The position numbers were made by a program, and so were the translations under genes. Shown piece by piece: positions 34,147 to 51,796 of a DNA stretch of 62,769 nt. Source of the DNA: Deltaproteobacteria bacterium (GTDB lineage Bacteria; Desulfobacterota; WTBG01; CAIYCZ01; CAIRTM01); contig JAJRXD010000076.1 in the NCBI GenBank assembly GCA_024276465.1, positions 1 through 62,769 on the forward strand, given 5' to 3'. The notes under the pieces were generated by a model. That model saw nothing but the letters and a program-made list of their open reading frames with translations, searched no databases and was not told the DNA's origin. How positions within the stretch are numbered: the stretch's first letter is position 1; every line of letters begins with the position of its first letter.

Positions 34147-35982
34147 CTAAAAAGTCCAGTTCATACCAAAACTAAGGAGCGTGAACTGGCCGTCAAGGTA
34201 GTTATTCTCCCTGTCATCATATTCCCTGAACATGTATTTTGCATATAGTGATACCTTTTGGCTGTAAAGATATGTCAGGCCAAGAGAGGTTTCGAACTTG
34301 TCTATCTCAAGGTCGGAAAGCTCGCCCACATTGTTTGAATCAAGCTGGTTGTCAAAATCAGCATTGCTTTTTGTATAAGTAAAATCTCCGGTCAATGATA
34401 CTGTTGGTTTCACCTGATAGGTTGCAGACAGGGCATAGCTCTGGCTTCGGTCGTCGTATGGCACCTCGTCAAACACAAAAAGGCTTTCAGTTCCTCTCAT
34501 ATGATATGTTTTGTATGAAGCAGGGGTGTCAATCTCATTGTCAATCAGGCTGAATGAACTGGTGAGGGTTAGTCGCTCAAATGGAATATACCATGCGTTT
34601 ATGGAAATTTCATACCTGTCTTCATCGACATTATAGTTGGGGTGCTCACCTTTATAATAACTTAAGTTTGTGTTGAGAGAAAAGTTGGACCTGGGACTCC
34701 AGCTTACTGATACATTAACTTCATCTGCATCTTTTGGAATCAATGTCTGAACAAGACTCCTGAACGTGTTGTCCTGGTTCACAAAAGGATCATCAACCTT
34801 TATCTTCTGGTATTTAAGATGCAGCCTGAGCCTCCTGGAAATTCTATGATTCGCGGTAATCCGGTATGTTTTTTTATATGTTGATCCTTCATTGAAATTA
34901 TCTCTGTCAATATTTTCCCACTGATACATAAGCCTGAAACTGGTTCGTTTCATGGGCCGAACATTGATATTAAGCCCCCCCCTTTCTATGTCCCTTTTAA
35001 AACCTCCAGGGGAGTTGTTGTCCATGTGGTACTTATTGTAAAAAATATCCGTGGAAATATGGCGAGATATGTATTTACTGAAGCGTGCTGCAAAATTATT
35101 AAAATCAATATTATTGCGGGTGTCTCTGTTTGTTTTTGAACCCCACTGAAAACTTGCAAAAAGAGATGATGCAAAAGGAAGTTCAGAGGTTAAGTTTATT
35201 TTATGTATCCTCGTTTTACTGTCAGGAACCCTGCTGTACGGGGCCTGTCCTTTTACCAGAAAAAAGGTTGCCCCTGTTCCATAATTATTTACAGGAGCAG
35301 AAGCATCCTCCATGAAACTGCGCCAGAGGTGTTGATACTGGATGGTAACCGGTCCGATACTGCCTTCAACACCAAGGGTTACATCATCTGTGTTTGAATT
35401 TATTCTTTTGTTTTTTGATGTCACATGGCATGTCGAGCATTTTGAAACAGTTGTCGCCTGCCTGTGACCCCTTTTGCTGTATCTCCTGTAATCACCTTTA
35501 AACTTCAAGAACGGGATGGCTGGCACGCGTAATGTATTTTCTGATCTTATTTCTTCAAGTGTTATACTGTTATACTTATCAGGATCGAAATCATCGAATG
35601 AGTCCTGGTTCGTCAGAGGGTCGTGATCGAGATAATGGCGGTAGCGACGATAAAAAAAGGAGGACTGAAATTTTCTATTTGAATCAAAATTCAGTATATA
35701 CGTCTGATCATGTTTATCCAGGATATCACCTTTTGCTTTAAAAAATTTTCTTCCTGAAAGCCCCTCAATCATAAATTTTGCTTCCGCACCCGAATCGAGA
35801 GTTTCATATTCACCCACTTTGCCACGGTATCCTTTCACGTTGTAGTGATGGTAACCAACAGATGCTTCGGAATTAAGTTCCAGCGGAATCCCTGTTTTTT
35901 CTTTTTTGTCCTGTGCGTATATCGCAGTTGAAGCAATTAAGATAACAAACAGTTGAATAATATGTCTTTTAAATATTAACAT
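34147..35982 (-). CDS. MtrB/PioB-like outer-membrane beta-barrel of the cytochrome conduit
   Basis: A 611-residue protein with a signal peptide (to about AQ at 23-24), then alternating polar/aromatic strands typical of a large beta-barrel. It ends MNWTF, with the C-terminal Phe used for outer-membrane insertion. This fits the decahaem-associated MtrB/PioB family, which wraps a decahaem protein to move electrons across the outer membrane. An unusual CSTCH haem-binding motif lies at residues 182-186. It starts three bases after the MtrA/DmsE-like gene stop, so they are coupled. Family call is from fold and neighbour, not close motifs. Confidence 0.82.
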   Translation of the reverse strand: MLIFKRHIIQLFVILIASTAIYAQDKKEKTGIPLELNSEASVGYHHYNVKGYRGKVGEYETLDSGAEAKFMIEGLSGRKFFKAKGDILDKHDQTYILNFDSNRKFQSSFFYRRYRHYLDHDPLTNQDSFDDFDPDKYNSITLEEIRSENTLRVPAIPFLKFKGDYRRYSKRGHRQATTVSKCSTCHVTSKNKRINSNTDDVTLGVEGSIGPVTIQYQHLWRSFMEDASAPVNNYGTGATFFLVKGQAPYSRVPDSKTRIHKINLTSELPFASSLFASFQWGSKTNRDTRNNIDFNNFAARFSKYISRHISTDIFYNKYHMDNNSPGGFKRDIERGGLNINVRPMKRTSFRLMYQWENIDRDNFNEGSTYKKTYRITANHRISRRLRLHLKYQKIKVDDPFVNQDNTFRSLVQTLIPKDADEVNVSVSWSPRSNFSLNTNLSYYKGEHPNYNVDEDRYEISINAWYIPFERLTLTSSFSLIDNEIDTPASYKTYHMRGTESLFVFDEVPYDDRSQSYALSATYQVKPTVSLTGDFTYTKSNADFDNQLDSNNVGELSDLEIDKFETSLGLTYLYSQKVSLYAKYMFREYDDRENNYLDGQFTLLSFGMNWTF

Positions 35983-35985
35983 TGT

Positions 35986-36897
35986 CTATCTGGTTAAGCT
36001 GCTTCCATTAAGTTGAGACGGCAGATCACTTCCATGCACCTGTGAATGGCACTGTGTACAGGATGTGAGAAACGAAGCAACTGTGGGATGTGAACCTGTT
36101 TTTGGGTTTTTTCTGTGTCCTTTGTGGCAACGGAGACATATAAAGGGATCGTTCTGTTTCAACAGATTGTCTGCTATAGTTCCGTGTGGATCGTGGCAAA
36201 TGGAACAGTCCTCAAACACAGGCTCGTGTTCATAGATAAATGGGCCCTGATATTCGGCATGACACTCAAAACAAAGGTCATTCAGTACAGGTTGGTTAAG
36301 GCTGTTATTTTCAGAGCCATGACTGGTATGACAGTCACCGCACTTCATCTTTTTTTCCTGTACAGGATGATGAGAAGGAAGAAGATTTCGTGCTTTTTTA
36401 TCCTGATGGCACGAAAAACAGATCTCCGGATCCCCGGGATACAGCATCTTGTCTGCTGTTTCTTTGTGCGGTTTGTGGCATTCGTTGCAGGCTATGCCAT
36501 TGAGCAAATGAGCATTTGCACGCCAGTCCATCATGGAACCTTTTCTGTGGCATCCAAGGCATATCTCTGAGCTGACTTCAGGGGAAAGCCTTAAAAAACT
36601 TATAATGTTTCCGGTCCCGCCTTTTTCTTTTACGTGGATGCTTGCCGGACCATGGCATATCTCACAACCTTTTCCGGGCTGATCAGACTCAAAAAAAGCA
36701 AGCCTTGAGTGAACGGTTTTTTTGTAGTGGCCATAAATATCACCGTGGCATGGAATACAAACATCGGTTCCAGTATAATAGGCACCATCAATTACCGGTA
36801 TTTCCGGCTGCAACACATCAGTATTGTAAAGAATTTGACAGGCAGCAAAAGATATTAAACAGAGAGCAGGAAACAAAATTATAGCTTTTTTTAACAT
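35986..36897 (-). CDS. Decahaem cytochrome c, MtrA/DmsE-like
   Basis: The 303-residue protein has a signal sequence, possibly a lipoprotein one (Cys20 in SFAAC), and ten CXXCH motifs by eye. They include CIPCH, CEICH, CLGCH, CNECH, CFSCH, CGDCH, CFECH, CSICH, CLRCH and CTQCH. Length, haem number and its place next to the barrel gene match the periplasmic MtrA/DmsE/PioA component. That component is a haem wire inserted in the barrel. It begins 45 bases after the cytochrome b-c fusion gene ends. In this model it takes electrons from the inner-membrane modules and hands them outward. Confidence 0.9.
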   Translation of the reverse strand: MLKKAIILFPALCLISFAACQILYNTDVLQPEIPVIDGAYYTGTDVCIPCHGDIYGHYKKTVHSRLAFFESDQPGKGCEICHGPASIHVKEKGGTGNIISFLRLSPEVSSEICLGCHRKGSMMDWRANAHLLNGIACNECHKPHKETADKMLYPGDPEICFSCHQDKKARNLLPSHHPVQEKKMKCGDCHTSHGSENNSLNQPVLNDLCFECHAEYQGPFIYEHEPVFEDCSICHDPHGTIADNLLKQNDPFICLRCHKGHRKNPKTGSHPTVASFLTSCTQCHSQVHGSDLPSQLNGSSLTR

Positions 36898-36941
36898 AGT
36901 TCAGTTCTTTCAGATAATTGCACAAACGCCTGCAGATCTCT

Positions 36942-38603
36942 TTAATAACTGCCGGGCTGAAGAAATGATGGAGTGTGAAACTCTTTATACTCATTAATCA
37001 TTTTGGTAATCTGATCATTTGCTACCATGGTTATCCTGTGCTCAGGATAACCCACCTCTGCCAGACGGAGAAATGGCTTTTTCCTGTTGTGACATTCATT
37101 ACAGTAAACAGGGTGCTTGGAAATATTTGCGTGGATTTTTTCCACTATCTTTTTCTTCTCTTCCAGGCCGATCTTCTTATCATTAATTTCTTTCATAATC
37201 TGTTTTATAAGCTTTCTCTCAGCTTCAATTTCTTTTCTGTCAGGCTTGCTGTCGCAGGTTTCACATGGTGTCAGCTTTATGCCCAGGGAGTCAATCTGGT
37301 GGTTGTTAATCTCAGGGTTAAAAACAATATTACCGGTTGAACGTTTATACCAGTAATAATAGAGCTGTTCACCTGGTTTTTTGGGACGCACATGACATGT
37401 CTGGCAGGCAAAATACAGATTATGCATATTAAGAAATGCTCTGACATGTACGGATTTGCCGTGTGGCAGATCACCATGACATTTTATGCAGTGTGATGTG
37501 TTGTCAGGGCCAATACCTAATTCTATTCGATGATAATGATCTTTAATCTCTTTTTCCTGCACAAAACGATAGCCATGATAAAAAGTCTTTTCCTCATTGT
37601 TTTCTAAAAGTATTTCCTCAATAAAGTTTGGTTCTATTAAAGGCATCTTTTCAGCGTGTGGCTCAGTACTTACAATCTGGTACCCGAAAACAAACACTGA
37701 CTCATATATTACTTTTGAAATTACAACAGTTGCAACCATGACTGCTGCAATCATAAGAAGCATATATGCTTTCATGAAAATTCTTTTGAACATGCCCCCT
37801 TTAAAATCATCAGTTACATACAGGTCCCGAATTCTGTGTTTCAGTCCTGCATCTTCCATTGCCTTTACATATTGTACATAATGATACTGCATTATTTCCC
37901 TTTCCCCCATGAAACCATTCAACCATGATTTACCCATGGGAAAAACTGCAGGTGTCAGATGAACATTATATAAATGCCATATGAAAATGACGATACTTGC
38001 AAGAAATGCCTCATCACTGTGGGCAATATAGGCAAAATTCAAAACATTTCCTGAGAAAAATTTTGTAAAAAAAGTTTCACCCCACAAAAAATATCCTGAA
38101 ATGCCGATAACCGGGATACCCCAGAAAACAGCAAGATAGCCGAACTTTTCCTTTAATCCATGGGCCACAAGTGCCGGGCGTTCACTGGTAATAAAGAAAA
38201 AATATTTTAAAGCAGCAATGAGCTCCTTAATGTCCGTTAAATTAGGAACCATTGGCAGAGTTCCCAATGTTTTTATAAAGGTTTTCAGGTTCAGGCTGCC
38301 TTCATCCTTAAGGGGTTTAAGATAGTATTTCCAGGCGCAAACAATCACATAAAACATATGATAAATAAAAACAGCTGTAATAATGATGGCAGCTGTACGG
38401 TGAATCAGAGGGGCAAAACTGATACCACCAACAAATGGATAGAGTTTTTCACCCCACCATGTGTGATGAAACTTTAAAGGCAGTCCTGTTGCTGCAAGAA
38501 GGGTAAAAGAGATGAACATTACAATATGCTGAATTCTCTGATTTAATGTAAGCCGGTAAAAATAAAGCTGGCCGTCTTTTTCAATAACCTTGACATTTTT
38601 CAT
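36942..38603 (-). CDS. Cytochrome b - trihaem cytochrome c fusion, quinol oxidoreductase type
   Basis: Starting at ATG 38603 (GAGG upstream; one base after the previous stop) the protein has 553 residues. Residues 1-220 are a cytochrome b561-like four-helix unit with likely haem ligands among His26, His68, His195, His210 and His215. A further helix is at 277-298. The C-terminal part has CXXCH at 372-376, 400-404 and 501-505, and a CETCD at 447-451 that lacks His. The same parts exist as two separate genes at 42012 and 41200. CbcL of Geobacter is a comparable fusion. It likely oxidises menaquinol. Confidence 0.85.
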   Translation of the reverse strand: MKNVKVIEKDGQLYFYRLTLNQRIQHIVMFISFTLLAATGLPLKFHHTWWGEKLYPFVGGISFAPLIHRTAAIIITAVFIYHMFYVIVCAWKYYLKPLKDEGSLNLKTFIKTLGTLPMVPNLTDIKELIAALKYFFFITSERPALVAHGLKEKFGYLAVFWGIPVIGISGYFLWGETFFTKFFSGNVLNFAYIAHSDEAFLASIVIFIWHLYNVHLTPAVFPMGKSWLNGFMGEREIMQYHYVQYVKAMEDAGLKHRIRDLYVTDDFKGGMFKRIFMKAYMLLMIAAVMVATVVISKVIYESVFVFGYQIVSTEPHAEKMPLIEPNFIEEILLENNEEKTFYHGYRFVQEKEIKDHYHRIELGIGPDNTSHCIKCHGDLPHGKSVHVRAFLNMHNLYFACQTCHVRPKKPGEQLYYYWYKRSTGNIVFNPEINNHQIDSLGIKLTPCETCDSKPDRKEIEAERKLIKQIMKEINDKKIGLEEKKKIVEKIHANISKHPVYCNECHNRKKPFLRLAEVGYPEHRITMVANDQITKMINEYKEFHTPSFLQPGSY

Positions 38604-38604
38604 G

Positions 38605-39705
38605 TTACTTTTTTCCTCTTTTATTAAACAAAGCAAAGTTTGGAAAAGCATTTCTTGCCATATCAAGCACTGTAAAAATCATTACCGGAATAAAACTGCC
38701 CAGTGTCAATAACACAAAAAAAACACATACGTAAAATTCCACCGGGTTTCTGTCTGATGAAAGAATAACATGGGCTTTATACCCGGCAAGGTTCATCTCG
38801 GCATCAGGGTGGCAATCAATGTCAGAGCATGTTTTGTAAATGTTATCTTTATAGGATGCAGATTTAGGGTCATTCATGGATCGTATGGCATGGACTGATT
38901 CTCCGGGCATTACGTGGCAGTCCGTACATTCTGCAGCAGATTCATCGTTAAAAAAAACGGCCTTTCCATGGTATGTTTCCATATAGGATTTACCCACATT
39001 CGGCATATTGTGCCGTTTCATCATCTCATTATTTTCATGACAGGTTCCGCACATTTCGATAACTTCAAGAGGCGTACGAAGCTTTTGCATCCGGGATGTG
39101 AAGTGCTTGTAAAATTTTCTCAAAAAATCTTTTTCCTCATGACATATGGAACACCTTGTTATGGTTTTTTCTTTAAGCCCCGGCTTTGCTTTTTTTAAAA
39201 AAGCAAGTGGCCGGTAAAGAGGGTCAGTATGACAGGTTACGCATTCAGGATAATCATCAGGATATTCTTTAAGATTACCGTCTTTGTCAAACCTGCTGTG
39301 AACACTTTGTGACAAATACTCGCCTACTTTCTGGTGTGAAAAGGGAAGCCCTGATGAGGGCTCATCCATATGGCACACGATAAGACAGTTTACTTTTACC
39401 GGTTTGCCGTGGGGAAATTTATCAATGTTTGTGTGACAGTCAGAGCATTTTATATTGCCGTGCGGGCTGTTTAAATAAAGATCTTCAGTTACATACAGAA
39501 GTCTGAATTTTCCCTGATTTCCGGTTTTCTGGATATAACTCAATCCCCTGTATTGATGGCAAAAAAGACAGTTTTCCTCATCAACAGCCACTGATTCTGA
39601 AGCAGTACAAAGTATTAATGTAAACATCATAAACAGCATCAATGTTCTTTGTTTGCCTTCCGCATTTAAGCAGACACATTTGACAACTTCATCAATATTA
39701 ATCAT
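38605..39705 (-). CDS. Membrane-anchored multihaem cytochrome c (6 CXXCH + CX3CH + CX4CH)
   Basis: A 366-residue periplasmic protein with an N-terminal signal-like helix and a C-terminal membrane helix (about 325-350). There are six normal haem motifs (CLFCH, CSDCH, CVTCH, CSICH, CGTCH, CTDCH), one CLIVCH (CX3CH) and one CSDIDCH (CX4CH). Its paralogue at 42722 keeps the same order. ATG 39705 has AGGTGA at good spacing. It sits one base before the cytochrome b-c fusion gene, so the two make one coupled inner-membrane unit, probably the periplasmic electron acceptor from cytochrome b. Confidence 0.87.
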   Translation of the reverse strand: MINIDEVVKCVCLNAEGKQRTLMLFMMFTLILCTASESVAVDEENCLFCHQYRGLSYIQKTGNQGKFRLLYVTEDLYLNSPHGNIKCSDCHTNIDKFPHGKPVKVNCLIVCHMDEPSSGLPFSHQKVGEYLSQSVHSRFDKDGNLKEYPDDYPECVTCHTDPLYRPLAFLKKAKPGLKEKTITRCSICHEEKDFLRKFYKHFTSRMQKLRTPLEVIEMCGTCHENNEMMKRHNMPNVGKSYMETYHGKAVFFNDESAAECTDCHVMPGESVHAIRSMNDPKSASYKDNIYKTCSDIDCHPDAEMNLAGYKAHVILSSDRNPVEFYVCVFFVLLTLGSFIPVMIFTVLDMARNAFPNFALFNKRGKK

Positions 39706-39868: not shown

Positions 39869-40810
39869 TCATTTTAACGACAGAACACTAACCCTGTTGG
39901 CTGACATTTCCACAACATACAGCCTTTTTTGGCTGTCAATACAAAGACCGGTTGGGGTTACGAATTTCAGGATATTGCCGTTATCATCTCCAATAACAGA
40001 CAGAAATCTTCCGTCAGTGTCAAAAACCTGTATAACCCCAAGGTAACTGTCACTGACAAACACCCTGTTGTCAGAATAAACAGCAACTCCTTTTGGCCGG
40101 TAAAATTCGCCCTTTTCCACCCCCCAGCCGCCAATATTAGTCAAATAGTTCCCATCAGGATCAAGCACTTTTACTCTTGTGTTAATTACCTCAACAATAT
40201 AAACATTTCCATGGCTGTCGATATCAAGAAAAAATGGAAATCTGAACTCCTTTTTTTCCATTCCCATGGTCCCAACAGTTTTCAAAAGAGACTTTTTCTC
40301 AATATCATAAACAAGGATACAGTGGTTGTCATTATCAACCACGTAGCATCTTTTCAACTTGCTGTTTACAGCCACATCAGTCGGGTCCGAAGGTTTTTTT
40401 CCGCTATGGGTGTTTCCGGTTTTAAACTGGGAAATGTATGCTCCCTCCGGGCTGAAAATCTGCACTCTATGGTTTCCTGAATCTGCCACATAAATTTTTC
40501 CTGTTTCATCCAGTCCCAATCCCAGCGGAAAGTTAAATTCCCCGTTGTTCCGGCCTGTTTTTCCAATGGAAAAAAGATATTTACCCCTAATGTCAAACAC
40601 CTTTACTTTATTGTTTACCCCATCCATAACATAGATTTCACCGTTTTTCCCAACCGCAACATCACTGGGTTGTGTAAAATCTGATTCAATTGTGAAGAGG
40701 TGCCCTGCCGTGAGAATGTTGAGAGCTTTATCCCCGGCATTTACACCCCGGGCTAATAGAAAAAAAACTGCTGTTAGAATAAAATAGGTTTTTCGCTGTA
40801 TATGGTTCAA
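39869..40810 (-). CDS. Secreted NHL-repeat beta-propeller protein
   Basis: The 313-residue product has a signal peptide (to about NAGDK) and about six NHL-type blades, with repeated V.D.GNH..VFD and G..G.F..P.G.A motifs such as FNFPLGLGLDETGKIYVADS. NHL propellers bind proteins or other ligands and are common next to multihaem cytochrome genes. The TTG start at 40810 has AAGGAGG six bases upstream. It lies between the two inner-membrane modules and could help assemble the complex, but this is inference. Confidence 0.85.
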   Translation of the reverse strand: MNHIQRKTYFILTAVFFLLARGVNAGDKALNILTAGHLFTIESDFTQPSDVAVGKNGEIYVMDGVNNKVKVFDIRGKYLFSIGKTGRNNGEFNFPLGLGLDETGKIYVADSGNHRVQIFSPEGAYISQFKTGNTHSGKKPSDPTDVAVNSKLKRCYVVDNDNHCILVYDIEKKSLLKTVGTMGMEKKEFRFPFFLDIDSHGNVYIVEVINTRVKVLDPDGNYLTNIGGWGVEKGEFYRPKGVAVYSDNRVFVSDSYLGVIQVFDTDGRFLSVIGDDNGNILKFVTPTGLCIDSQKRLYVVEMSANRVSVLSLK

Positions 40811-40851
40811 GATAAACCTCCTTAAAAGTCATGTTTTTAAATTTAAACTTT

Positions 40852-41046: not shown

Positions 41047-41052
41047 TTTAGC

Positions 41053-41199: not shown

Positions 41200-41991
41200 T
41201 CAGTTACCTTTACCTTCCATGGTCTGAGACCTTTTTTTGCCAGGGTACAGCATGGTTGGAAGATAAAATTCGCTATACTCATCTACAAGTTTCAATACAG
41301 AAAGTTGTGTAAGCCTGTTAATACGCCTGGAATCGTAGCCGAGGTATTTTAAGTCAAGATACCCGTTTTTAGTATGACATTCTTCACAGGTAACGGGTTT
41401 CTTGGATATGTGTTTCATGAGTTCATCCCGGGTTTTTCTTTTTTTCTCCTCAGAATAGGTGTCTTTAAGGTTCATGTACTGCATTGCCAGTTCTTTGTTT
41501 GGGAAATTGTCTAATCTCTCACCATCCTTAACCGGTACGATTTTTGCTCCGTAACTTCCCTTATTTCCCTTGACCTTATTGAGAGGCTCTCCTGTTACAT
41601 CATCAAACCATTGAAAGACAATCTTTCCCCCATCCTTTTTTCTGATGTGACAGGTCTCGCAGGCAATGTAAAATGTATGCATGTTATAAAATGATCTCAG
41701 TTCCTCTGAATTTGAATGGCAGAAATTCCCGTGGCAACGAAGGCACATTGTAGAGTTTTCATCATCACTGTAACCCGTATCAGGGAGGATGTGGAAATGA
41801 CCGGTTTCCATTGTCCGCTCAATTGTCTTTGAAAATTTGTCAATGTTAGAATCATCTGAAACAGGCTTTGTTATTGTAGGACAATAGAGGAATTTTCCAA
41901 GGCACACTAAGCTCACAATAATAAAAGCAAGAAAAAAAACTCCAAATAAAACAGAGCTGAACTCACGCAACATATCAATAAATTTTTTCAT
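41200..41991 (-). CDS. Membrane-anchored trihaem cytochrome c
   Basis: Starting at ATG 41991 the protein has 263 residues, an N-terminal membrane helix (about 10-33) and three CXXCH motifs: CLRCH, CETCH and CEECH. The motif order and the spacing of the surrounding segments (FYNMHTFYIACETCHIRKK) match the C-terminal part of the fusion at 36942, including the final YLPTMLYPG. A TTG 18 bases earlier is also open. It is coupled to the cytochrome b gene, 2-20 bases upstream depending on the start, and is probably its c-type partner. Confidence 0.87.
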   Translation of the reverse strand: MKKFIDMLREFSSVLFGVFFLAFIIVSLVCLGKFLYCPTITKPVSDDSNIDKFSKTIERTMETGHFHILPDTGYSDDENSTMCLRCHGNFCHSNSEELRSFYNMHTFYIACETCHIRKKDGGKIVFQWFDDVTGEPLNKVKGNKGSYGAKIVPVKDGERLDNFPNKELAMQYMNLKDTYSEEKKRKTRDELMKHISKKPVTCEECHTKNGYLDLKYLGYDSRRINRLTQLSVLKLVDEYSEFYLPTMLYPGKKRSQTMEGKGN

Positions 41992-42011: not shown

Positions 42012-42722
42012 TTATAAATCAGTGTTGACAGAAACTCTTTCGGCCTGTTGAATGCGCTGATACTGTAAGGGGTGTTCCTCTTCTAATTCATGTGCTGAAA
42101 TTTTTCCATCCAGCCAGATTCTCGACATGGGAAACTTGCCTGGCTTCAGGTGTACTTCATAAAAATGCCATACCATAATGGCACTGGATGCAAGTATTGC
42201 TTCCATGGTATGCACAAGAATCGAAACATCAAGAAAAAATTTAGGGAAATACTGTTCAAACCACAAAAAGAATCCTGTAAAAGTTATAATTATATTACCT
42301 ATCCACCCGGTCCAGTACTCCATCTTTTCCTTGTAGTTAAACCTGTCAAATAATGGCTTTCGGTTGCTTATTCTCAGGTAATAGAGCATGTTACGAAGAA
42401 AATCTTTTGCATCCTTAAATCCCGGAACCATATCGAAAAAAAGGCTTCTTCCCGGTTTTGTCAGAGACAGATACAATGCCTGATAAATAAGATTAAGGAT
42501 CATGATTACAGCAGCAATTCTGTGTGTAATACCCCGCAGGAAAAAAATATTCTCTTTGTATTGCCCGAAGACAGTTAACATCTCTTCAGGCAGTTCCACC
42601 ATAAATCCTGTTATGGCAAGGATAAAAAAAGTTGACCAGGTTATATGATGCTGAATTCTTTCATGGAGGTTGAGCCTTGTGTAATATTTACCTTCATCAG
42701 ATATTTTATTACTTTCGTTCAT
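42012..42722 (-). CDS. Cytochrome b561-like membrane subunit
   Basis: A 236-residue protein with about four membrane helices and conserved His in RIQHH, GITHRIAA, VHTMEA and WHFYEVHLKPG. These match the first 220 residues of the fusion at 36942 and suggest two b haems. Quinol dehydrogenases of the FdnI/PhsC/CbcL type have this design. Its first base overlaps the last base of the 42722-43909 gene, and it is followed by the trihaem gene. It is the cytochrome b part of the split module. Confidence 0.87.
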   Translation of the reverse strand: MNESNKISDEGKYYTRLNLHERIQHHITWSTFFILAITGFMVELPEEMLTVFGQYKENIFFLRGITHRIAAVIMILNLIYQALYLSLTKPGRSLFFDMVPGFKDAKDFLRNMLYYLRISNRKPLFDRFNYKEKMEYWTGWIGNIIITFTGFFLWFEQYFPKFFLDVSILVHTMEAILASSAIMVWHFYEVHLKPGKFPMSRIWLDGKISAHELEEEHPLQYQRIQQAERVSVNTDL

Positions 42723-43909
42723 TAATGCCTTCCTTTCTTAATTTCCCGTCTCGTCGAAAAAAAGTCCAGTATTTGATGCATTATCATAAAGCTGATTAAT
42801 CCTCCGATCAGAAACATGTAAAAATACTTTATCAATTGAAGAATAATAGCTTGATAGTATTCTGTAGCTGTCAGCTTGTTTCTGACATTTTCGGTTAACA
42901 CCGTTTGAAATGGTTTGAGTTCACCCCTTTTAATCATTTCCTGCCTTTCAAATGAAGCCAGCTTAATGTCAAAAAAACCGGCTTTTTCTCCTGAAGGGTG
43001 AATTTTCCCCTGAGCAAAAGCAGGAGTGGCCTCTGGATGACACTTCTGAAGCCCGAATGGATTGCTGCAGGTTTGAACAAGGTTGTCTTTATGTACAGCA
43101 GAACCCGGGTCGGTTTTTGGCATAATATGATGAGAAAAATAGCCTACAGGTGCATGACAATCAATGCAGGTAGGAGCATTTTCATTGTCATATTTAATAG
43201 CCTGCCAGTGAAATGTATCACGGTAAGTTCCGGTGGCTTCAAGGCCATGCCTTTTCATTTTTTCTTTATCTTCGTGGCACGATGCGCACAGTTCAACCAT
43301 TTTTTTTGCAGAGCGGCGTTGTTTTAGCCTGTGGGTCAGATGATAGTAATAAGTTCTGGTCCATTTCTCATCCTCATGGCATCCAAGGCACCGGTCAAGA
43401 ATTTCCCTGGCAATTCCCTGCACGTCGCCACTTGTACCATGTGGCGGCACAAGGATGCGGTTTTGATGACAATAAGTACAGGTGGGAAGATCTTCAGGAA
43501 ATTTTTTAGGGTTTTTTTCTGACCCTCTGCCGTGTACGCTTTTTTCAAAATCATCAATCATCCTTGCATGAGAAAATTTCCTGTCAACTGATGGCTCTGC
43601 AATATGACATTCAGTGGCGCAGTCAACTCGTTCGATACCAACATGAGGGAATTTTTCAACGCTTTTATGACAGTCTTTACATCGAATCCTGCCGTGTACT
43701 GAATGATTGTATGATGATTCATCCACATAGAAAAGCCGTTTAACCCCGTTGCTGTCTATCCTTCCAAGCCCGGAATATTGATGACACATCAGACAGTTTT
43801 CTTCATCTGCAGCCATCAAATCCGGAATAGAAAAAAAGCACAACAGCAGGACAGCTGAAATCACTAACGAGTTAAGGGACAGAATGTTTTTTTTTATTTT
43901 TTTCTCCAT
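42722..43909 (-). CDS. Membrane-anchored multihaem cytochrome c (6 CXXCH + CX3CH + CX8CH)
   Basis: A 395-residue paralogue of the gene at 38605. It has a signal peptide, six CXXCH motifs (CLMCH, CKDCH, CTYCH, CLGCH, CASCH, CIDCH), a CATECH (CX3CH), and a C-terminal membrane helix at about 360-385. In place of the paralogue's CSDIDCH it has CSNPFGLQKCHPEA, a CX8CH spacing. The neighbourhood order is the same as in the other copy: anchored cytochrome, then cytochrome b, then trihaem. Whether the CX8CH site binds haem is unknown. Confidence 0.87.
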   Translation of the reverse strand: MEKKIKKNILSLNSLVISAVLLLCFFSIPDLMAADEENCLMCHQYSGLGRIDSNGVKRLFYVDESSYNHSVHGRIRCKDCHKSVEKFPHVGIERVDCATECHIAEPSVDRKFSHARMIDDFEKSVHGRGSEKNPKKFPEDLPTCTYCHQNRILVPPHGTSGDVQGIAREILDRCLGCHEDEKWTRTYYYHLTHRLKQRRSAKKMVELCASCHEDKEKMKRHGLEATGTYRDTFHWQAIKYDNENAPTCIDCHAPVGYFSHHIMPKTDPGSAVHKDNLVQTCSNPFGLQKCHPEATPAFAQGKIHPSGEKAGFFDIKLASFERQEMIKRGELKPFQTVLTENVRNKLTATEYYQAIILQLIKYFYMFLIGGLISFMIMHQILDFFSTRREIKKGRH

Positions 43910-43912
43910 GTC

Positions 43913-45520
43913 TTAAGAGTCCGGTTGCAGATATGATTCAGGTTCCTGTTTTAAAAGCTGGGGAAAAGGACTGCTGTGAGGTTCATGACATTCAACACAG
44001 CGCTTTATTTTAAAGGTTTCATGAATATCCTTTGGCTTATTCGCTTTCCCCTGTATTAACTTTTTAATAAAATTGTGGCATTCATAACAGGGCACAATCC
44101 CTGTCTCGTTTATTTTTTCAGTATGATCCTCGCCATGGCAGTAACTGCATGTTATTTTCTGGTCAGGAACAAGTTTTATCATTAATGCAAGATAGTAATC
44201 ATGGAGGTCTTCACTATCCTTGCCCTCAGTTCCCACGTCTCTTTTTCCTAACAATGGGTGGCATGCCGTGCACAACCTTTGCTGATCATTAAGAATATGT
44301 GCCCCGTATTGACTGCCGTGTGCATTATGACAGATGAGGCAATAGCCTTTTTGTGCATCCCTGTGCTTAAATTCCTGTTTCACAATCGAGGTATTATGAC
44401 AATCTGCCTGAAAACACATCTTTATGACAGGGGGCCGTTCAGGAGACTGCCGCGTTATACTGTGGCATGCCCTGCATTTTTTTTCCAAAAATGATTTGTG
44501 ATAAGAGGGGAGAGGTTCATCGCTGGAAGAAACAAGCAGATCTTCATTATTAATGTCAATGCTGACCTCTCTAACAGACAAATCTTCTTTCTCAGCATGA
44601 CATGCAACGCAGAGATCATAAGACCAGTCAAGCCTTAATTCAAGCTTTTCTGCAGATCCCTTTGCAGCTGGTCCTCTGATGATTACACCCTTGTCATGGG
44701 GGTTATGGCAGGTTCCACAGAACACCTCCCCGTTAAACAGGGGTAAAATCACATCAAATTTTTTTTCCGATTTCCTGATTGCTGTCAGGATTTTCCGGGA
44801 TGGTTCAAGCATGTGATTTGCCCTGGCCGGGTGTAAAGGCAACTGTTCCCAGTGACAGACAGAACAGAATGCGGGGTTGCATGCCTTGAAATTTACATCT
44901 TTAATATCCAGAGCAGTTTCAGGGTCTGGCAGGGTCTGGTGACAGTAAAGGCATTTATCAGTCAGCACTTCTCCTTTTTTGTCAATCTGATGGTGAGGGT
45001 TGATCTTGACATAATAATCACTGTTGTGGCACCGGAAACAAAAATCTGAAATCTTTTTGAAAGGGGGCCCCCTTAAAAAAGAGATGTTTTTAAGTTGTTC
45101 TGAAGCGTCAGATTTGCACTGCAGAAACACATCGTGGCATGTTCTGCAGGTAACTTTCCCATCATAAAGCGGCATCTCTTCCGGGATACAAATTGACAAA
45201 TTATCAGGCGGAACAATATCAGAGTCATGCAGGTCACCCTGCACATATTCCGTTTGATGGCATGAATTACACATTTCAATATCATTTTTAAACTTCAATT
45301 TAAAATCTTTCCGGCCAGGCACTGGAACGCCATCATGGCAGACATCGCAGTCTTTACCGGTAAAGTGGGGGTCTATAATTTTATCATTTGCCTTAACTTT
45401 ATCTGAAGAATTAACTTCCCGGCTTTCCGTGGCAGTTATGTCTATTGCCCACAGACACCCTAATATTACAGTTAGAGTCAGCACAATAAATCCTTTACCG
45501 GTCATCGAGGGAAGCAGCAT
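43913..45520 (-). CDS. Periplasmic or outer-surface 14-15 haem cytochrome c
   Basis: A 535-residue protein from ATG 45520 (eight bases after GAGG; GTG 45523 is also possible), with a signal peptide. I count 14 CXXCH motifs and one CFQADCH (CX4CH). The haem sites run from about residue 58 to 512. No close motif family is recognised beyond multihaem cytochromes. It begins right after the 20-haem gene stop and ends three bases before the 42722-43909 gene, so translation is coupled. It could link the conduit with extracellular acceptors or partner cells. Confidence 0.85.
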   Translation of the reverse strand: MLLPSMTGKGFIVLTLTVILGCLWAIDITATESREVNSSDKVKANDKIIDPHFTGKDCDVCHDGVPVPGRKDFKLKFKNDIEMCNSCHQTEYVQGDLHDSDIVPPDNLSICIPEEMPLYDGKVTCRTCHDVFLQCKSDASEQLKNISFLRGPPFKKISDFCFRCHNSDYYVKINPHHQIDKKGEVLTDKCLYCHQTLPDPETALDIKDVNFKACNPAFCSVCHWEQLPLHPARANHMLEPSRKILTAIRKSEKKFDVILPLFNGEVFCGTCHNPHDKGVIIRGPAAKGSAEKLELRLDWSYDLCVACHAEKEDLSVREVSIDINNEDLLVSSSDEPLPSYHKSFLEKKCRACHSITRQSPERPPVIKMCFQADCHNTSIVKQEFKHRDAQKGYCLICHNAHGSQYGAHILNDQQRLCTACHPLLGKRDVGTEGKDSEDLHDYYLALMIKLVPDQKITCSYCHGEDHTEKINETGIVPCYECHNFIKKLIQGKANKPKDIHETFKIKRCVECHEPHSSPFPQLLKQEPESYLQPDS

Positions 45521-45523
45521 CAC

Positions 45524-48058
45524 TTAATCCTCTCTTACAGTCAATTCATCAGTTTTTTTACGGCTTTTGATCCTGTGAAAAAATTTAAATTTGTAAAGCG
45601 CATCCTCACCATGACATTTTGCACAGAAAATGTATTCGATGTCTTTCCTGAGAAAACTGCTTATAGAGTTTCCTTCTGTTTCTTCCCCGCTTCCTTTGCC
45701 TGGATAATGAGAATTCCAGAGATGAGTTTCGTGACACGTTGTGCAAACTATGCTTCCCTTAACGGACTTCTCGCCATTATCAGTAAACAGAGGAAATTGA
45801 CCAATAAATTCATCGAACTGGCGAGGGTCCATCGAGCCATTTTTTTTCAGGATTAAAGTCATGAATGGACTCGAAGGATGCAGGCCGTATTCCGGGAGTT
45901 TAACTTCTGCACACTGGCCTTTCTGGTGACAACAGGTGCAAAGTCCTGTCATAAAATTTTTCTCTGCAGTAAATTCAGTATTCCAGTCTAAAATTACAGA
46001 AGGTCCCAACTGCCTGTTCATAAGAAAAACCGGAGTTAAGGCATTATGAACAGCATGGCACTGTTGACACAGCCCGGCTTCAGGAGGCAGTAACCCCTGA
46101 TTACCGGTTTCATCCGGAGCAGTTACGCGCAGGTCATGATCAGTGCCTTCAATAAAAGCTTTGTCCTGGTGGCATTCAACACAAAGAGGTGAATTTGCAG
46201 CGCTTTCATAGCGCAGAAAACTGTCGGAAAGTGTGCCGTCCCCGCCCTTCTTTTCAGGGTTGTCAGGATCCCACTGGTGCGGGTTATGACAGGTAGAGCA
46301 GTAAATCATTCCAGTTGCCGGATCTTTTTTACCATCCTGTGTATAAAGCGGCAGTCTGATTTTTGACGAGTTTTTCAGGTTTATATTGATTGGGTGAAAG
46401 TTGTCCCCGATTTTTTTTTCGTCAGCGCAGCTGTTTTCCCTGTGGCATTCAAGACAAATCATGGCCATAAGTTGCCCTTCTTCCGGATCAAGTTTTCTGC
46501 CGAACATGAACAGATCAGATCCGCCGTGAGCCAGATGGCAGCTTCCGCACAATCCTGATTCTGCAGGGCTCTGTCCTGAAATGTTTTTCTCTTCAGGCAG
46601 GGAAAGAGAAAGATCGTGATCTGTCCCTGCTATTGTTTCCTGTTCTTTATGACACCCCAGGCAGAGAACTGAACCATTGTTAGAAACCCTTAAAAAACTG
46701 TTGTTTAAATCACCTTTCAGATCTTTTGAGCCTTTATTGCCAGGATCCTTTGGATCCCACTGGTGGCTGTTATGGCAGGTTGAACAATAGATTTCTCCAT
46801 GCTCACTCCTTTTGCCATCTGATGTAAAAAAAGGAAATCGAACAGGTTTTTCTTCATTATCGGGTTTTATGCCAACAGGATGACCGGTTTCAGGAATAAG
46901 AGCTTTTTCTGCACATTCTGCTTTTTTATGACAGCTTGTACATATTTCAACAGAGGCTTTTTCTTTACCCACAAAAGGCCTGGCCCACGTATAAGGGCCT
47001 GTTCCATTGTGGGCAAGATGACAGGAGCTGCAAAGCCCTGATTCGGAGACGGTTTTGCCGGAAACATTAACTGTGTCAGGAGAAATCAGATTAAGGTCAT
47101 GTTTGGTCTCCCTTATGCTTTCCCCCTGTGTCTGGTGGCATTGCGTACAGAGAGAGCTGGTATTGCTTCGTTCACTGAGAAGGGCATTATTAACAGCAGG
47201 GTTGTGAACTGTGTGGCATGAGACACAGATCAGATGTCCTTTTTTCCCTAACCTGACTAAATTACCATTTTTCCATTTTACCGGAATTTCAGCATTTTTC
47301 GGCATAACATCAACACTGTGTGAATAGATTGTTGTTTTACCTTTCTCACTGTTAAGACCAGCTGTTTTACCATGACATTGCTCGCAAAGCACAGGAAATT
47401 CAGAAGGACGGTCTGCAGGCATTACAAGCCGGTTGTCAGTAAATCCTCCATGCGCAACATGACATGATTCGCAAATCACCTGATTGGGCTTATCCCCTGC
47501 AAGCCCGCCATATCTGTTTATCTGATCGGACATTTTCAAAGAGGTTTTGTCAATGGGGTGGTTGCCATTTTCAGGACCACCAACTTTGTCCTGATGACAC
47601 ATTTTGCACATCCTGGAGTTTTTATTTGATGTTCTCAGAAATACTGTTTTTTCGATTCTGTAATCTCTTGATTCAGCATGGGCACTGTGGCAGGTTGCGC
47701 AGTCCATCCTGCCTTCCTCATCAAGGGGAAAAATTTCGGGAACCTTTATCTTTTCAGACGGAGTGACACCAACCTGATGTCTTCTGTCATTCATGACTTT
47801 TTTTCTTGAATCTACTGTTGATCCATCGTGGCAGGAAAAACACATCTCAATAGAAGCTGCAACTGGTTTGTCAGGCAGGGCAGCAAACACAGAGCTTTTT
47901 TTGTCCACAAAAAAGGTATCAACCCAGCTAAAGTGGCAGATGGAACATTGTTTTGCAGAATCCGGTTTTAAGGATTCCTCGGATGATGTTATTAAAGCAT
48001 TTGAAGCTGTGACTGTAAATAATATAATAAATAAGGTTATTAAAGCAGCTTTCGTCAT
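45524..48058 (-). CDS. 20-haem cytochrome c made of five tetrahaem modules
   Basis: An 844-residue secreted protein with 20 CXXCH motifs in five successive groups of four: 38/73/120/151, 197/225/278/304, 343/373/425/466, 504/535/587/626 and 664/707/772/812. The modules share a CxxCHxAH...CxxCH...CSTCHNxHQW pattern ending in TDHDL in the better copies. In modules 3-5 the second site has an added Cys, CXXCHX4C (as in CTSCHKKAEC). This suggests growth by internal duplication and a long haem wire. It may be periplasmic or displayed outside; no lipobox is evident. Confidence 0.88.
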   Translation of the reverse strand: MTKAALITLFIILFTVTASNALITSSEESLKPDSAKQCSICHFSWVDTFFVDKKSSVFAALPDKPVAASIEMCFSCHDGSTVDSRKKVMNDRRHQVGVTPSEKIKVPEIFPLDEEGRMDCATCHSAHAESRDYRIEKTVFLRTSNKNSRMCKMCHQDKVGGPENGNHPIDKTSLKMSDQINRYGGLAGDKPNQVICESCHVAHGGFTDNRLVMPADRPSEFPVLCEQCHGKTAGLNSEKGKTTIYSHSVDVMPKNAEIPVKWKNGNLVRLGKKGHLICVSCHTVHNPAVNNALLSERSNTSSLCTQCHQTQGESIRETKHDLNLISPDTVNVSGKTVSESGLCSSCHLAHNGTGPYTWARPFVGKEKASVEICTSCHKKAECAEKALIPETGHPVGIKPDNEEKPVRFPFFTSDGKRSEHGEIYCSTCHNSHQWDPKDPGNKGSKDLKGDLNNSFLRVSNNGSVLCLGCHKEQETIAGTDHDLSLSLPEEKNISGQSPAESGLCGSCHLAHGGSDLFMFGRKLDPEEGQLMAMICLECHRENSCADEKKIGDNFHPININLKNSSKIRLPLYTQDGKKDPATGMIYCSTCHNPHQWDPDNPEKKGGDGTLSDSFLRYESAANSPLCVECHQDKAFIEGTDHDLRVTAPDETGNQGLLPPEAGLCQQCHAVHNALTPVFLMNRQLGPSVILDWNTEFTAEKNFMTGLCTCCHQKGQCAEVKLPEYGLHPSSPFMTLILKKNGSMDPRQFDEFIGQFPLFTDNGEKSVKGSIVCTTCHETHLWNSHYPGKGSGEETEGNSISSFLRKDIEYIFCAKCHGEDALYKFKFFHRIKSRKKTDELTVRED

Positions 48059-48171
48059 ATTTTAGTCAACCCATAATCCACACAACAGAGGATCAGAAGC
48101 AAGAAATTTGAAATTAAACGCTGAGTTAAGTACACCTGATCTTCAATCCATGATGACTTTTTGCGAATGCA

Positions 48172-49026
48172 TCAATCATTAAATCCTGAATTCAGCTTCA
48201 TTACATTATCTGCTGACACTGCGCACCTGAACCCTATATTGAAGCTCCTGTGCAGGGGTTCATGCTTGTGCCGGTTAGATACGCTTAACGTTACATCACT
48301 GCTGCACCAGGCGCCGCCCCTCACAACTTTTTTTGCCCCATTTACCGGGCCAGTGGGGTTTTTGCGCGGGGCAAAACTGTAATATTCAGGGTCATACCAA
48401 TCATAACACCATTCCCAGACATTACCAATAATATCATAAATCCCGTAATTATTGGGCGCATAGCTTTTAACAGGTGTAGTTCCGAAGGAATTATAATTTG
48501 CCCTGTCCCGGTCTATTTGATCGCCCCACGGGAATTTATTTTTTTCAAGGCCACCACGTGCTGCCTTTTCCCATTCAGCCTCGGTTGGAAGCCTTTTCCC
48601 CGCCCACATGGCAAAAGCAGATGCATCATACCAGCTCACACCAACAACAGGGTCGTCAGGACGGTCAAATTCAGGATTCCACAGTTTGTGAGGAGGGTGG
48701 CCTGTTTCTTTTAAAAACTTTGCGAAACGGTTACAAGTTACCTCAGCAGAATCAATATAAAAAGCATCAAGATAAACACTACGTTCGGGTTGCTCATCAA
48801 TGTTTCCATCCTCACTGCCCATCAAAAAATAACCGGCAGGGATAAGAACCATTATTTCAGGGTCCATGTCAGCAGTAAAGGTTAGCGGACAACTCTGCTT
48901 TGCTGTATCACTGGTGCTTATACCGTCTGTCTGATAAAAACTGCACCCTGAAAAAGCAGTGATTATCAGGATAAACAGCCCGGATATTTTCAATGCAGTT
49001 ACACCTGCTGATGTTTGTGAAATCAT
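48172..49026 (-). CDS. FGE/SUMF-domain lipoprotein in the cytochrome cluster
   Basis: The 284-residue product has a lipoprotein-like signal (Cys28 in AFSGC) and a formylglycine-generating-enzyme fold: VLIPAGYFLMGSEDG, PVVGVSWYDASAFAMWAGKRLPTEAEWE, GNVWEWCYDWYD and VVRGGAWCSSD, ending NIGFRCAV. The active FGE Cys pair is not intact: only one Cys is near GGAWC. It may be a binding or maturation protein rather than an oxygen-using enzyme. It is between the 20-haem and 7-haem genes on the same strand, with about 115 bases on each side. Confidence 0.8.
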   Translation of the reverse strand: MISQTSAGVTALKISGLFILIITAFSGCSFYQTDGISTSDTAKQSCPLTFTADMDPEIMVLIPAGYFLMGSEDGNIDEQPERSVYLDAFYIDSAEVTCNRFAKFLKETGHPPHKLWNPEFDRPDDPVVGVSWYDASAFAMWAGKRLPTEAEWEKAARGGLEKNKFPWGDQIDRDRANYNSFGTTPVKSYAPNNYGIYDIIGNVWEWCYDWYDPEYYSFAPRKNPTGPVNGAKKVVRGGAWCSSDVTLSVSNRHKHEPLHRSFNIGFRCAVSADNVMKLNSGFND

Positions 49027-49143
49027 GTTTTTTTAGAATTGCTTATTTCTGGTAAATCTGTTTCCAATGACATTTCTATCGTTCGGAAGGGTGTTTGCCT
49101 GACAGGGATAATGTTGCCTTTGGTCACCCTGGATTTGCTTCCC

Positions 49144-50241
49144 TTAATGTATCAGCGTAAAAGTCTGTTGCATAGCTTCAAAATCCTCGTAAACCGAATT
49201 TTGACCATTATGACATCCAAGACAGGAAAAGTTAAGTGTAAGAAACGGTCCTCCTGAGTCCCTTGTCAGTTCATTTCCAGTACTGTTGAACATCTCACCG
49301 GGTTCAGCATCCCCTTTTATCCTCCATACGTGTGATCGCATATCAGCTTTCCTGTAAAGGCCATCGCCCCTGGACTCTGATTTTAAAACAGCAAAAGGCA
49401 TGTGACAATCCTCACACAAAAGGGCCTGCATGTTGAGATAAATGGTCTTATCCTTGTGACAGTCCCTGCATTCAGCCTTTATGGATTTTTGCCTGTCAGC
49501 AGCAAGGCTGAAATGTGTATTATGGCAGGAATTGCATACAGTATCCTTTCCATGCGCTGTTTCTCTCCATTCATTAAACTGCTGCTGGTTTCTGATAAAT
49601 CCGTTTTTAGCTTCTATAACAGTGCTGTCATTTCTGATGTGGCATTTTCCGCAAAGCTCTGGCGATCTGTCAATAACTATATAATCTCTTGACTGGGTGA
49701 TTGAATGTTCACTGCCAGGACCATGGCATGTTTCACAACCTGCTATTGGTGAATGGCGGGTTGCATTCCAGCTGTCATAAATTTCCTGATGGCAGAACCT
49801 GCAGGCGTATGACCCTGTAAAATCAGCATCTATTGAAAGAATCGAAAAAAAAGCTGCCCGCACAACCCGTTCCCTGAAAGGGCGAAGCATCACAATATCA
49901 ACCCGTGCCTGGCCTTTAGCATCTGCCGGCATTGTTTGTTCCCATGAGATGTTATTTTCACCTTTCAGCACAAAGTGGATTTTTGGCCTGAGGGTATCAG
50001 ACCAGTTTTCTCCGGACACAGTTCCATGTAAAACAGCTACACCTGATCTTTCCATGGAAAAAGAGGCCTCGTATTTAAGTGTTTCACCGGGGGGGTACTC
50101 TGTTCTTACGTTGCCGTCCGAATCATAAATTGTTATTCCATGAAAATCATATGTCTCTATTGCGTATGCATTTAAAGCATACCCGAAAATTACAGCAGAA
50201 AATATGTTTAAACATGCAATGATGACAAAAATATGTTTCAT
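49144..50241 (-). CDS. Heptahaem c554-like cytochrome with N-terminal Ig-like domain
   Basis: From ATG 50241 the protein starts MKHIFVI, with a signal peptide, then about 130 residues of a beta-rich (Ig/fibronectin-like) domain without haem sites. Seven CXXCH motifs follow from about residue 145: CRFCH, CETCH, CGKCH, CNSCH, CRDCH, CEDCH and CLGCH. GCETCHGPGSEH and the following order resemble the c554/MtrA-like group. The upstream ATG at 50301 overlaps the next gene and is less likely. It is a paralogue of 50282-51796. It may stick out from the membrane on its beta-domain. Confidence 0.85.
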   Translation of the reverse strand: MKHIFVIIACLNIFSAVIFGYALNAYAIETYDFHGITIYDSDGNVRTEYPPGETLKYEASFSMERSGVAVLHGTVSGENWSDTLRPKIHFVLKGENNISWEQTMPADAKGQARVDIVMLRPFRERVVRAAFFSILSIDADFTGSYACRFCHQEIYDSWNATRHSPIAGCETCHGPGSEHSITQSRDYIVIDRSPELCGKCHIRNDSTVIEAKNGFIRNQQQFNEWRETAHGKDTVCNSCHNTHFSLAADRQKSIKAECRDCHKDKTIYLNMQALLCEDCHMPFAVLKSESRGDGLYRKADMRSHVWRIKGDAEPGEMFNSTGNELTRDSGGPFLTLNFSCLGCHNGQNSVYEDFEAMQQTFTLIH

Positions 50242-50281
50242 TTTTATAATCTGCAGCAGATGTGAATGCTTCGTTGAAGCG

Positions 50282-51796
50282 TCAATGTATAAGACTGGCA
50301 AACGCCTTTACCTGTTCAAAAGTATATGCTCTTTGTGCGGATCCGCCCTCCCTGTGGCAATTCAGACAGACAAAGTTCAAGGTCAGGCCTGTCACCTTTC
50401 CATCACTTCCGCGGGCGACACTCTTTCCGTCTGAAGAAAACATTTCTGACGGGCTGTCAGCCCCGGAATTAATTGTAAATATATGTGATCGCATATTGCC
50501 TGCTTCAAGGTTGTTTCCGTCAAGGTCTGTAAAGCTTATATGTGCACCAGAGGTTACTGCAAATGGCATATGACAATCATAGCAACTGAGATCCTGCATT
50601 CCCCCAAAGGCAATGGTCTTATCCTTGTGGCATGAAATACAGTCCTGAACAATCGCTTCACCTGCAGCGCTCCGGCTGAAGTGAGCAGATGCATGGGGGT
50701 TATGGCAGGTATTGCATTTAAAAAAACTTTTACTGCCCGAGGTAAGCTCCTCATATTGCTGTCTGTGCAGAATAAGTCCGCCTTCTGCCTCTAACACTTC
50801 ATTGTCATCGCGAACATGGCATCTGCTGCATGACTTTTCTGCGTTGGGTTTTAATTTTACATTGGATGGGTCGCGCTGGTGTCGGCTTCCCGGACCATGG
50901 CATGCTTCGCAGGCAACCATTGCTTCTTTCCAGGCACCCACGATCAGGGAGCCATCCTGAGTGCCATTGTCTGAATAGCCAGTGGTGTGACAGGAAGCAC
51001 AATCAAAGGGAGTAGGTGTTGTCAAATCAATACCATAGGGGATAAACCTGCCGGAAGTTTCCAGAAAGCTGCTTGGCAAATTGTATTGTGTGTCTGTTCC
51101 ATCAAAGCCGGTGGTAAGAATTCGGCCTTCATGATTTACAAACATGGAGTTCCAGGCATAACCGCCAACTACATAATCCATATCTTCCCAGCGAAAAGCA
51201 GCCGGTGGTTCAGGAACACCCGGTGAGAAATCAGGATAGGAGGGTGAGTCCCCGGTCAGAAAACTCAGTGCAAAGTTGTGACCTGATTCCTGAAATGCTT
51301 CCACAATATCACTGTTAAGGTCTTTGTGACACACTATACAGGCTTTGCTTCCTATAAAGTCTGCATCTCCTTCCGTTCCGTTTCCCTCGTTTACCTCAAC
51401 AATGAATGATGCAGAGGTCTTTCCAGATAACCCGGGGATGTTCAATGATCTGATTTCAACTGAAGCGTTTCCGTTTGCCCCCTGCGGTACAATGCTGTCC
51501 CAGAACAAACTGTGATCCCCTGGACGCAGGGTCTTAAACTGCGGTTTAAGGGTTTCATTTTCTGCACCGTTATATACTACTTTACCACTTGCAAGTACAA
51601 CTGATGGCAGTGAAACGGAAAATGATAAATTATACCTGATTTTATCACCGTCTTTGTAAGTTTTTTTTGATCTTCCAAAAAGGTCCGTTATACTAACTTC
51701 ATTTATGGTCAGGATGCTGTTTGATGCATCTGTTTTAAGGGCTGCAGAAAAGATTAACACTATAAGGGTTGGAATTAATATATCCTTTCTTATCAT
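50282..51796 (-). CDS. Octahaem c554-like cytochrome with N-terminal Ig-like domain
   Basis: A 504-residue protein, the first of the cluster. It has a signal peptide, a beta-rich domain to about 140, then eight CXXCH motifs: CIVCH, CASCH, CEACH, CSRCH, CNTCH, CISCH, CYDCH and CLNCH. An extra segment with DYVVGGYAWNSMFVNHEGR sits between the first and second, absent from the 7-haem paralogue. The order after that (CEACHGPGSRH onward) aligns with the paralogue. A candidate promoter lies at 51880-51908. Possible role: terminal or exposed electron transfer. Confidence 0.87.
   Translation of the reverse strand: MIRKDILIPTLIVLIFSAALKTDASNSILTINEVSITDLFGRSKKTYKDGDKIRYNLSFSVSLPSVVLASGKVVYNGAENETLKPQFKTLRPGDHSLFWDSIVPQGANGNASVEIRSLNIPGLSGKTSASFIVEVNEGNGTEGDADFIGSKACIVCHKDLNSDIVEAFQESGHNFALSFLTGDSPSYPDFSPGVPEPPAAFRWEDMDYVVGGYAWNSMFVNHEGRILTTGFDGTDTQYNLPSSFLETSGRFIPYGIDLTTPTPFDCASCHTTGYSDNGTQDGSLIVGAWKEAMVACEACHGPGSRHQRDPSNVKLKPNAEKSCSRCHVRDDNEVLEAEGGLILHRQQYEELTSGSKSFFKCNTCHNPHASAHFSRSAAGEAIVQDCISCHKDKTIAFGGMQDLSCYDCHMPFAVTSGAHISFTDLDGNNLEAGNMRSHIFTINSGADSPSEMFSSDGKSVARGSDGKVTGLTLNFVCLNCHREGGSAQRAYTFEQVKAFASLIH

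Follow-up and report, generated by a model that had tools for sequence, protein, structure and literature searches.

Introduction

Electrons from the quinone pool reach the cell exterior through multihaem c-type cytochromes in several described systems. At the inner membrane, Geobacter relies on ImcH, CbcL and CbcBA/CbcABCDE, in which an inner-membrane cytochrome b is combined with multihaem c; CbcA has seven haems, and CbcL is a dihaem b domain joined to nine c haems (PMC10989804, PMC9129911). At the outer membrane, a decahaem cytochrome within a barrel is the common design of MtrAB, DmsEF and PioAB (MtrCAB, 6R2Q) and of OmcK/OmcL from Geobacter, HotSeep-1 and Seep-SRB2. Transcripts of GSU2203 (OmcK) and GSU2204 increase 2.4-2.7-fold on hematite in G. 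sulfurreducens and are raised on magnetite too (PMC4070692). The OmcK/OmcL conduit has also been named in the partners of anaerobic methanotrophic archaea (ANME) (PMC10553843), and we infer from gene order that GSU2204 is the OmcL of that report. In these partners, the Oet cluster and the 16- and 26-haem operon encode large exported multihaem cytochromes along with a six-bladed propeller (PMC5539420, PMC10553843). In this study, we analysed a 62,769-nucleotide stretch (the window) of an uncultured Deltaproteobacteria bacterium of the Thermodesulfobacteriota type (assembly GCA_024276465.1, contig JAJRXD010000076.1), which carries a cluster of multihaem cytochrome genes at 34147-51796. Our results indicate that the outer-membrane part of this cluster is of a known kind. 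For the cassette of octahaem, cytochrome b, trihaem, NHL and tetrahaem-array genes, we found no published name in the literature covered, which lacks most subscription journals.

Results

The cluster is a block of 13 genes, all on the minus strand, at the position given in the first-pass annotation of this DNA. Counted gene by gene, CXXCH motifs amount to 77 across nine multihaem cytochromes plus one in the barrel, exactly the figures reported earlier. From 34147 upward, the genes carry 1 (barrel), 10, 3, 6, 0 (NHL), 3, 0 (cytochrome b), 6, 14, 20, 0 (FGE), 7 and 8 motifs. Composition-preserving shuffles of these proteins averaged 0.49 motifs and never gave more than 3, and outside the block just two open reading frames of at least 100 residues in the window contain a CXXCH, one each. 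Five non-standard haem sites are backed by alignment, two in each octahaem protein and one in the 14-motif protein, and the block encodes more than 80 haem-binding sites. Profile searches upheld the domain calls made previously (NHL, FGE-like domain, DmsE/MtrA decahaem, MtrB/PioB barrel), as well as two b561-type subunits, one of them fused to a trihaem domain. The genes are as follows, with the basis of each call in brackets.

34147-35982, minus: MtrB/PioB-type outer-membrane barrel, OmcL (GSU2204)-like, one CXXCH (PF11854, NF041027, AlphaFold2 and Foldseek)
35986-36897, minus: decahaem c cytochrome of the OmcK (GSU2203)/DmsE/MtrA type, lipobox-like signal (NF041028, TIGR03508, match to 6r2q_A)
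36942-38603, minus: module A predicted dihaem cytochrome b fused to a trihaem c domain, 3 CXXCH (PF01292; invariant His; ATG start at 38603)
38605-39639, minus: module A octahaem c cytochrome (6 CXXCH + CX3CH + CX4CH), C-terminal membrane anchor (alignment, tree)
39869-40810, minus: exported NHL six-bladed beta-propeller (PF01436, E 2.6e-33; PF17170)
41200-41991, minus: module B membrane-anchored trihaem c cytochrome (3 CXXCH, N-terminal membrane segment)
42012-42722, minus: module B predicted dihaem cytochrome b, FdnI/b561 type (PF01292, 35.7 bits, cut-off 30.1; invariant His)
42722-43909, minus: module B octahaem c cytochrome (6 CXXCH + CX3CH + CX8CH), C-terminal anchor (alignment, tree)
43913-45523, minus: 15-site exported cytochrome, 14 CXXCH + conserved CX4CH (motif alignment)
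45524-48058, minus: 20-haem exported cytochrome, five tandem tetrahaem modules (module alignment, haem spacings)
48172-49026, minus: FGE-domain lipoprotein (PF03781, 214.6 bits; alignment; lipobox-like signals)
49144-50241, minus: heptahaem cytochrome, N-terminal region haem-free (profile search; adjoins the FGE gene in relatives)
50282-51796, minus: octahaem cytochrome, N-terminal region haem-free, paralogue of the heptahaem protein (profile search, relatives)

Each inner-membrane module, A and B, has three parts: an exported octahaem protein anchored at its C-terminus, a cytochrome b of the b561/FdnI type, and a trihaem domain that an N-terminal helix holds in the membrane. The histidine ligand positions of the cytochrome b are invariant in ten homologues, as in the FdnI/b561 family. 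Both octahaem proteins have eight haem sites, as the earlier count of 6+2 motifs had it. The first non-standard site is CX3CH (Cys97/Cys101/His102) and the second (Cys281/Cys290/His291) is CX4CH in module A and CX8CH in module B; all three residues of these sites are invariant in a nine-sequence alignment. An additional haem site in the trihaem proteins, in the overlapping motif CHGNFCH, was rejected because its second Cys is not conserved.

Among relatives, subunit fusions occur in every adjacent combination, namely cytochrome b with trihaem (as in module A of the window), octahaem with cytochrome b (621-630 residues) and all three together (889-921 residues). Since the three subunits are fused in relatives, they probably form one complex. 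The predicted topology fits these fusions: the octahaem chain ends on the inner side, the set of four b helices has both its ends on that side, and the trihaem anchor crosses back outward. The invariant His residues and the gene fusions thus give the combination that defines Cbc-type systems, a cytochrome b with two haem sites (predicted haem content) and a multihaem c subunit. Because of the architecture of CbcL and CbcBA, the complex is likely to pass electrons from menaquinol to c haems. Unlike in the Cbc systems, the b domain here has 8 c haem sites on one side and 3 on the other, and the partners are an NHL protein and a tetrahaem array; neither the trihaem subunit nor NHL is listed for CbcABCDE. 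A search of a plasmid collection with the fused cytochrome b gave no match.

The outer-membrane conduit could be assigned more closely. The decahaem cytochrome exceeds the cut-offs of both the GSU2203 model NF041028 (347.5 bits versus 325) and the DmsE family model TIGR03508 (248 versus 192). Its best match in a PDB sequence search is 6r2q_A (E 1.4e-48), which we take to be MtrA of the solved Mtr complex, the molecule name in the database being a mislabel. In most of its homologues, a Cys follows the hydrophobic signal stretch in a lipobox-like arrangement. The barrel scores 54 bits against MtrB_PioB (PF11854, cut-off 23), and its single CXXCH, at residue 182, is kept in homologues. It remains below the GSU2204 model NF041027 (313.6 bits versus 350), in a match that covers four stretches and draws most of its score from the N-terminal part, and far below the MtrB/PioB subfamily TIGR03509 (24.7 versus 240). 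A PDB sequence search with the barrel gave no match. The fold had been chosen beforehand as a point on which the earlier reading could fail, and on this point the reading stood. The AlphaFold2 model, for which four sequences were used, has an all-beta fold of more than 20 strands (predicted local distance difference test, pLDDT, 60; predicted template modelling score, pTM, 0.51), and Foldseek ranks MtrB (6r2q_B) first among PDB entries (E 4.6e-13), six orders of magnitude ahead of the next best match (6e-7).

The conduit therefore shares the decahaem-in-barrel design of MtrAB, DmsEF and PioAB, with sequence and fold matches to 6R2Q, and differs in having no adjoining OmcA/MtrC-type surface decahaem. 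No cluster protein reaches the OmcA/MtrC-type model TIGR03507 (cut-off 209); the 20-haem protein scores 39.9 over a short C-terminal stretch. Judged by these scores, the conduit is a divergent representative of the known OmcK/OmcL kind, its barrel belonging to a sister group. We call the barrel OmcL-like, and not OmcL, because its score falls under the GSU2204 cut-off, as it does in other members of the family and order. A further difference is that linkage to b-type quinone modules is found only in the window's family and class, whereas the genomes with true OmcK/OmcL members (G024, G028 and G048) have their b-type matches on other contigs. The earlier statement that no named system matches the cluster thus fails for the conduit and stands for the inner-membrane and wire remainder.

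Two observations concern the surroundings of the barrel. A conserved secreted protein of about 200 residues, with no Pfam match where tested, is encoded 3' of the barrel in seven relatives (L023:14933-15517, L024:11387-11998, L026:253-885, L081:4594-5196, L083:14477-15085, L085:9253-9846 and L086:2307-2912) and is missing there in the window. Downstream of the window's barrel, 31401-33648 on the minus strand encodes an AmmeMemoRadiSam radical SAM enzyme (TIGR04337, 359.5 bits versus 220) and a DUF362 protein. The N-termini of both are twin-arginine-like, which seems odd for a radical SAM enzyme.

The two largest cytochromes lie between the modules and the FGE gene. The 14-motif protein has 15 sites, its extra CX4CH being kept in four homologues, in agreement with the 14+1 noted before. 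The 20-haem protein consists of five tetrahaem modules. Its homologues carry 12, 16, 18, 20, 22, 24, 31 or 38 motifs. The 16-haem and 20-haem forms are one entire module apart, and their haem spacing is otherwise almost the same. A PDB sequence search with the 20-haem protein gave no match. Both large cytochromes have signal peptides, and neither has a conserved lipobox or membrane anchor. The earlier suggestion that they lead to the outside is not borne out by these features, and a periplasmic position seems at least as likely. The 20-haem protein is most simply read as a periplasmic wire whose length varies; alternatively, it may be the subunit of a secreted filament. That large wires alone carry periplasmic electrons in this cell is unsupported, as a 180-residue C7-type cytochrome is encoded on contig C69.

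The FGE-domain lipoprotein, whose gene accompanies most such clusters within the family, lacks the second Cys of the copper-binding pair in the alignment and was rejected as a copper formylglycine-generating enzyme; the copper-cysteine positions are those that we presume for the FGE family. Any part of this protein and of the NHL propeller in electron transfer is conjectural, as is the localisation of the 7- and 8-haem proteins.

Of 395 genomes sampled from the phylum, 25 are matched by a profile built on the octahaem subunit. We examined 42 modules and took linkage counts on the 20 with sufficient flanking sequence. The cytochrome b, trihaem and NHL genes stand beside the octahaem gene in all 20, and a large tetrahaem-array cytochrome is present in 19. 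A 15-haem-like cytochrome occurs in up to 18, an approximate count as a few array proteins also match. An MtrB-type barrel was found in seven modules, all in the window's family and class. Homologous contigs with names belong to metagenome-assembled genomes (MAGs) labelled Thermodesulfobacteriota, Deltaproteobacteria or Proteobacteria, plus one unclassified bacterium and one Sumerlaeota.

The octahaem tree places module A among sequences from several families, in a clade supported at 100/98; module B belongs to another clade. It follows that A and B are old paralogues and do not stem from a recent duplication. A third clade (100/100) holds further copies from the same family and class. The genome itself has a third octahaem/b copy on contig C101 (L032:8542-10539), broken by an in-frame TAA that reflects either a decayed gene or an assembly error. 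In the G004 genome, A and B belong to two distinct clusters, and each cluster has a barrel/decahaem pair to itself. The window barrel is 65% identical to the A-cluster barrel of G004 and 43% identical to its B-cluster barrel, and the 14- and 20-haem genes of the window are nearer to the B cluster than to the A cluster. The window thus looks like a merger of A- and B-type clusters around one conduit. G001 and G007 also combine both modules with one conduit, in the order 7-haem, FGE, A, NHL, B, 3-haem, 16-haem, 14-haem, decahaem, barrel. The proposal of two parallel inner-membrane modules agrees with this arrangement and with the complete octahaem/cytochrome b/trihaem set of each module. Synteny of the barrel/decahaem pair with the b-type modules, the other point on which the first-pass annotation could have failed, is kept in several further genomes from this family and class, in one of them twice. 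Near the conduit of G004 (L024:14744-17672), a gene for a NiFe hydrogenase small subunit is followed by a possible large subunit gene.

In the block itself, several genes probably start at a codon downstream of the first one in the longest frame, namely at 38603, 39639, 41991 and 50241. The NHL gene is separated from its neighbours by 229 and 389 bp, and the 13 genes are not necessarily a single transcript. A scan of the block for promoters and terminators gave no meaningful excess over shuffles.

One further group of genes in the window bears on the quinone pool.

14763-19222, plus, about 15 kb from the cluster: EtfB, EtfA with an N-terminal 4Fe-4S domain, and a membrane HdrD/CCG-type Fe-S oxidoreductase

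These genes likely encode an electron transfer flavoprotein (ETF):menaquinone oxidoreductase, which is a plausible quinol source for the cluster. In the genome, which is 95% complete, acyl-CoA dehydrogenase genes are present, dsrA was not found (best 32.5 bits versus a cut-off of 392.85), and the only trace of a haem-copper oxidase is a broken COX1 fragment.

Discussion

The cluster is probably a trans-envelope extracellular electron transfer system in which menaquinol is oxidised and electrons flow outward. Menaquinol would be oxidised by the two paralogous inner-membrane complexes, which would hand the electrons on to haems in the periplasm. The exported 15-haem protein and the 20-haem one, with its five tetrahaem modules in a linear array, would relay them across this space, and the OmcK-type decahaem within its OmcL-type barrel would move them through the outer membrane to a mineral, an electrode or a partner cell. 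The order of these carriers and their partner contacts are our conjecture. The A and B copies may work at different redox potentials, in the manner of ImcH, CbcL and CbcBA in Geobacter. An outward direction is favoured because acyl-CoA dehydrogenase and ETF:quinone oxidoreductase genes point to electrons entering the quinone pool and because, with no dsrA found and COX1 broken, no internal sulfate or oxygen sink was seen.

Several points weigh against this interpretation. In other lineages (13 of the 20 well-flanked modules), no recognisable MtrB-type barrel lies nearby, and for this reason the cassette need not always serve extracellular transfer. No surface lipoprotein of the MtrC/OmcA type was identified in the cluster, which makes the final transfer to an external acceptor conjectural. 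Confidence in the barrel model is modest, and the 20-haem protein is poorly modelled (pLDDT 29, pTM 0.18). Moreover, the cassette is set apart from CbcA/CbcB by descriptions of architecture, not by sequence comparison. Finally, the search for internal sinks covered sulfate and oxygen, but not nitrate or other acceptors.

Direction is where the strongest rival stands. Electrons could flow inward, taken from a syntrophic partner or a mineral, with the modules reducing quinone. Such reverse use has been proposed for homologous parts, namely CbcBA and the Oet/OmcKL conduits of sulfate-reducing ANME partners (PMC10553843). The window's 13 genes lack the peptidyl-prolyl isomerase (PPIase) and the 16-/26-haem pair of the ANME-partner operon. 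In one relative (L117, 646-16696), PPIase, 25-haem, 16-haem and propeller genes lie directly upstream of a cassette with a 38-haem array, and this Oet-like block resembles the operon of PMC5539420 joined to the cassette. We nevertheless consider inward flow unlikely here, as neither dsrA nor an intact haem-copper oxidase offers a sink (nitrate and CO2 sinks were not searched), and the window carries quinone-reducing ETF genes.

It is less likely still that the modules and the 15/20-haem array store electrons in the periplasm or connect to a periplasmic reductase, with the OmcKL conduit as a separate neighbouring pathway: the 13 modules without a recognisable barrel mean that the cassette can function in the absence of this conduit, but the linkage is kept across several genera of the family and class in two orientations, several clusters share the order array, 14-haem, decahaem, barrel, and in other relatives the cassette adjoins a barrel-like protein of a second type (L033, L045). 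These haem-free proteins of 671-676 residues (L033:16679-18709; L045:489-2504) adjoin 5- and 11-haem cytochromes as well, seem related to each other, and are also found in a Sumerlaeota MAG; they are possibly a different conduit type.

Alongside an outward-directed system in this organism, we tentatively raise a broader possibility, to which we give somewhat less than even weight. The octahaem-b-trihaem complex, the NHL protein and the length-variable array could together be an unnamed respiratory cassette of the whole phylum. In it, a quinol oxidoreductase with 11 c haems would be joined directly to a haem wire that spans the periplasm, its length depending on how many tetrahaem modules it has. 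This wire would dock onto different outer-membrane conduits, of the OmcKL type here and other barrels or Oet-like blocks elsewhere.

In extracellular respiration, little is understood of how electrons get from quinol oxidases over the periplasm to outer-membrane conduits, a task commonly assigned to small shuttle cytochromes. In this cluster, a predicted quinol oxidase, a candidate wire and a conduit are encoded side by side. Between species, the wire varies by whole tetrahaem modules, and the question of wire or shuttle is therefore testable. The combination of octahaem, cytochrome b, trihaem and NHL genes also provides a marker cassette for possible extracellular electron transfer in uncultured Thermodesulfobacteriota.

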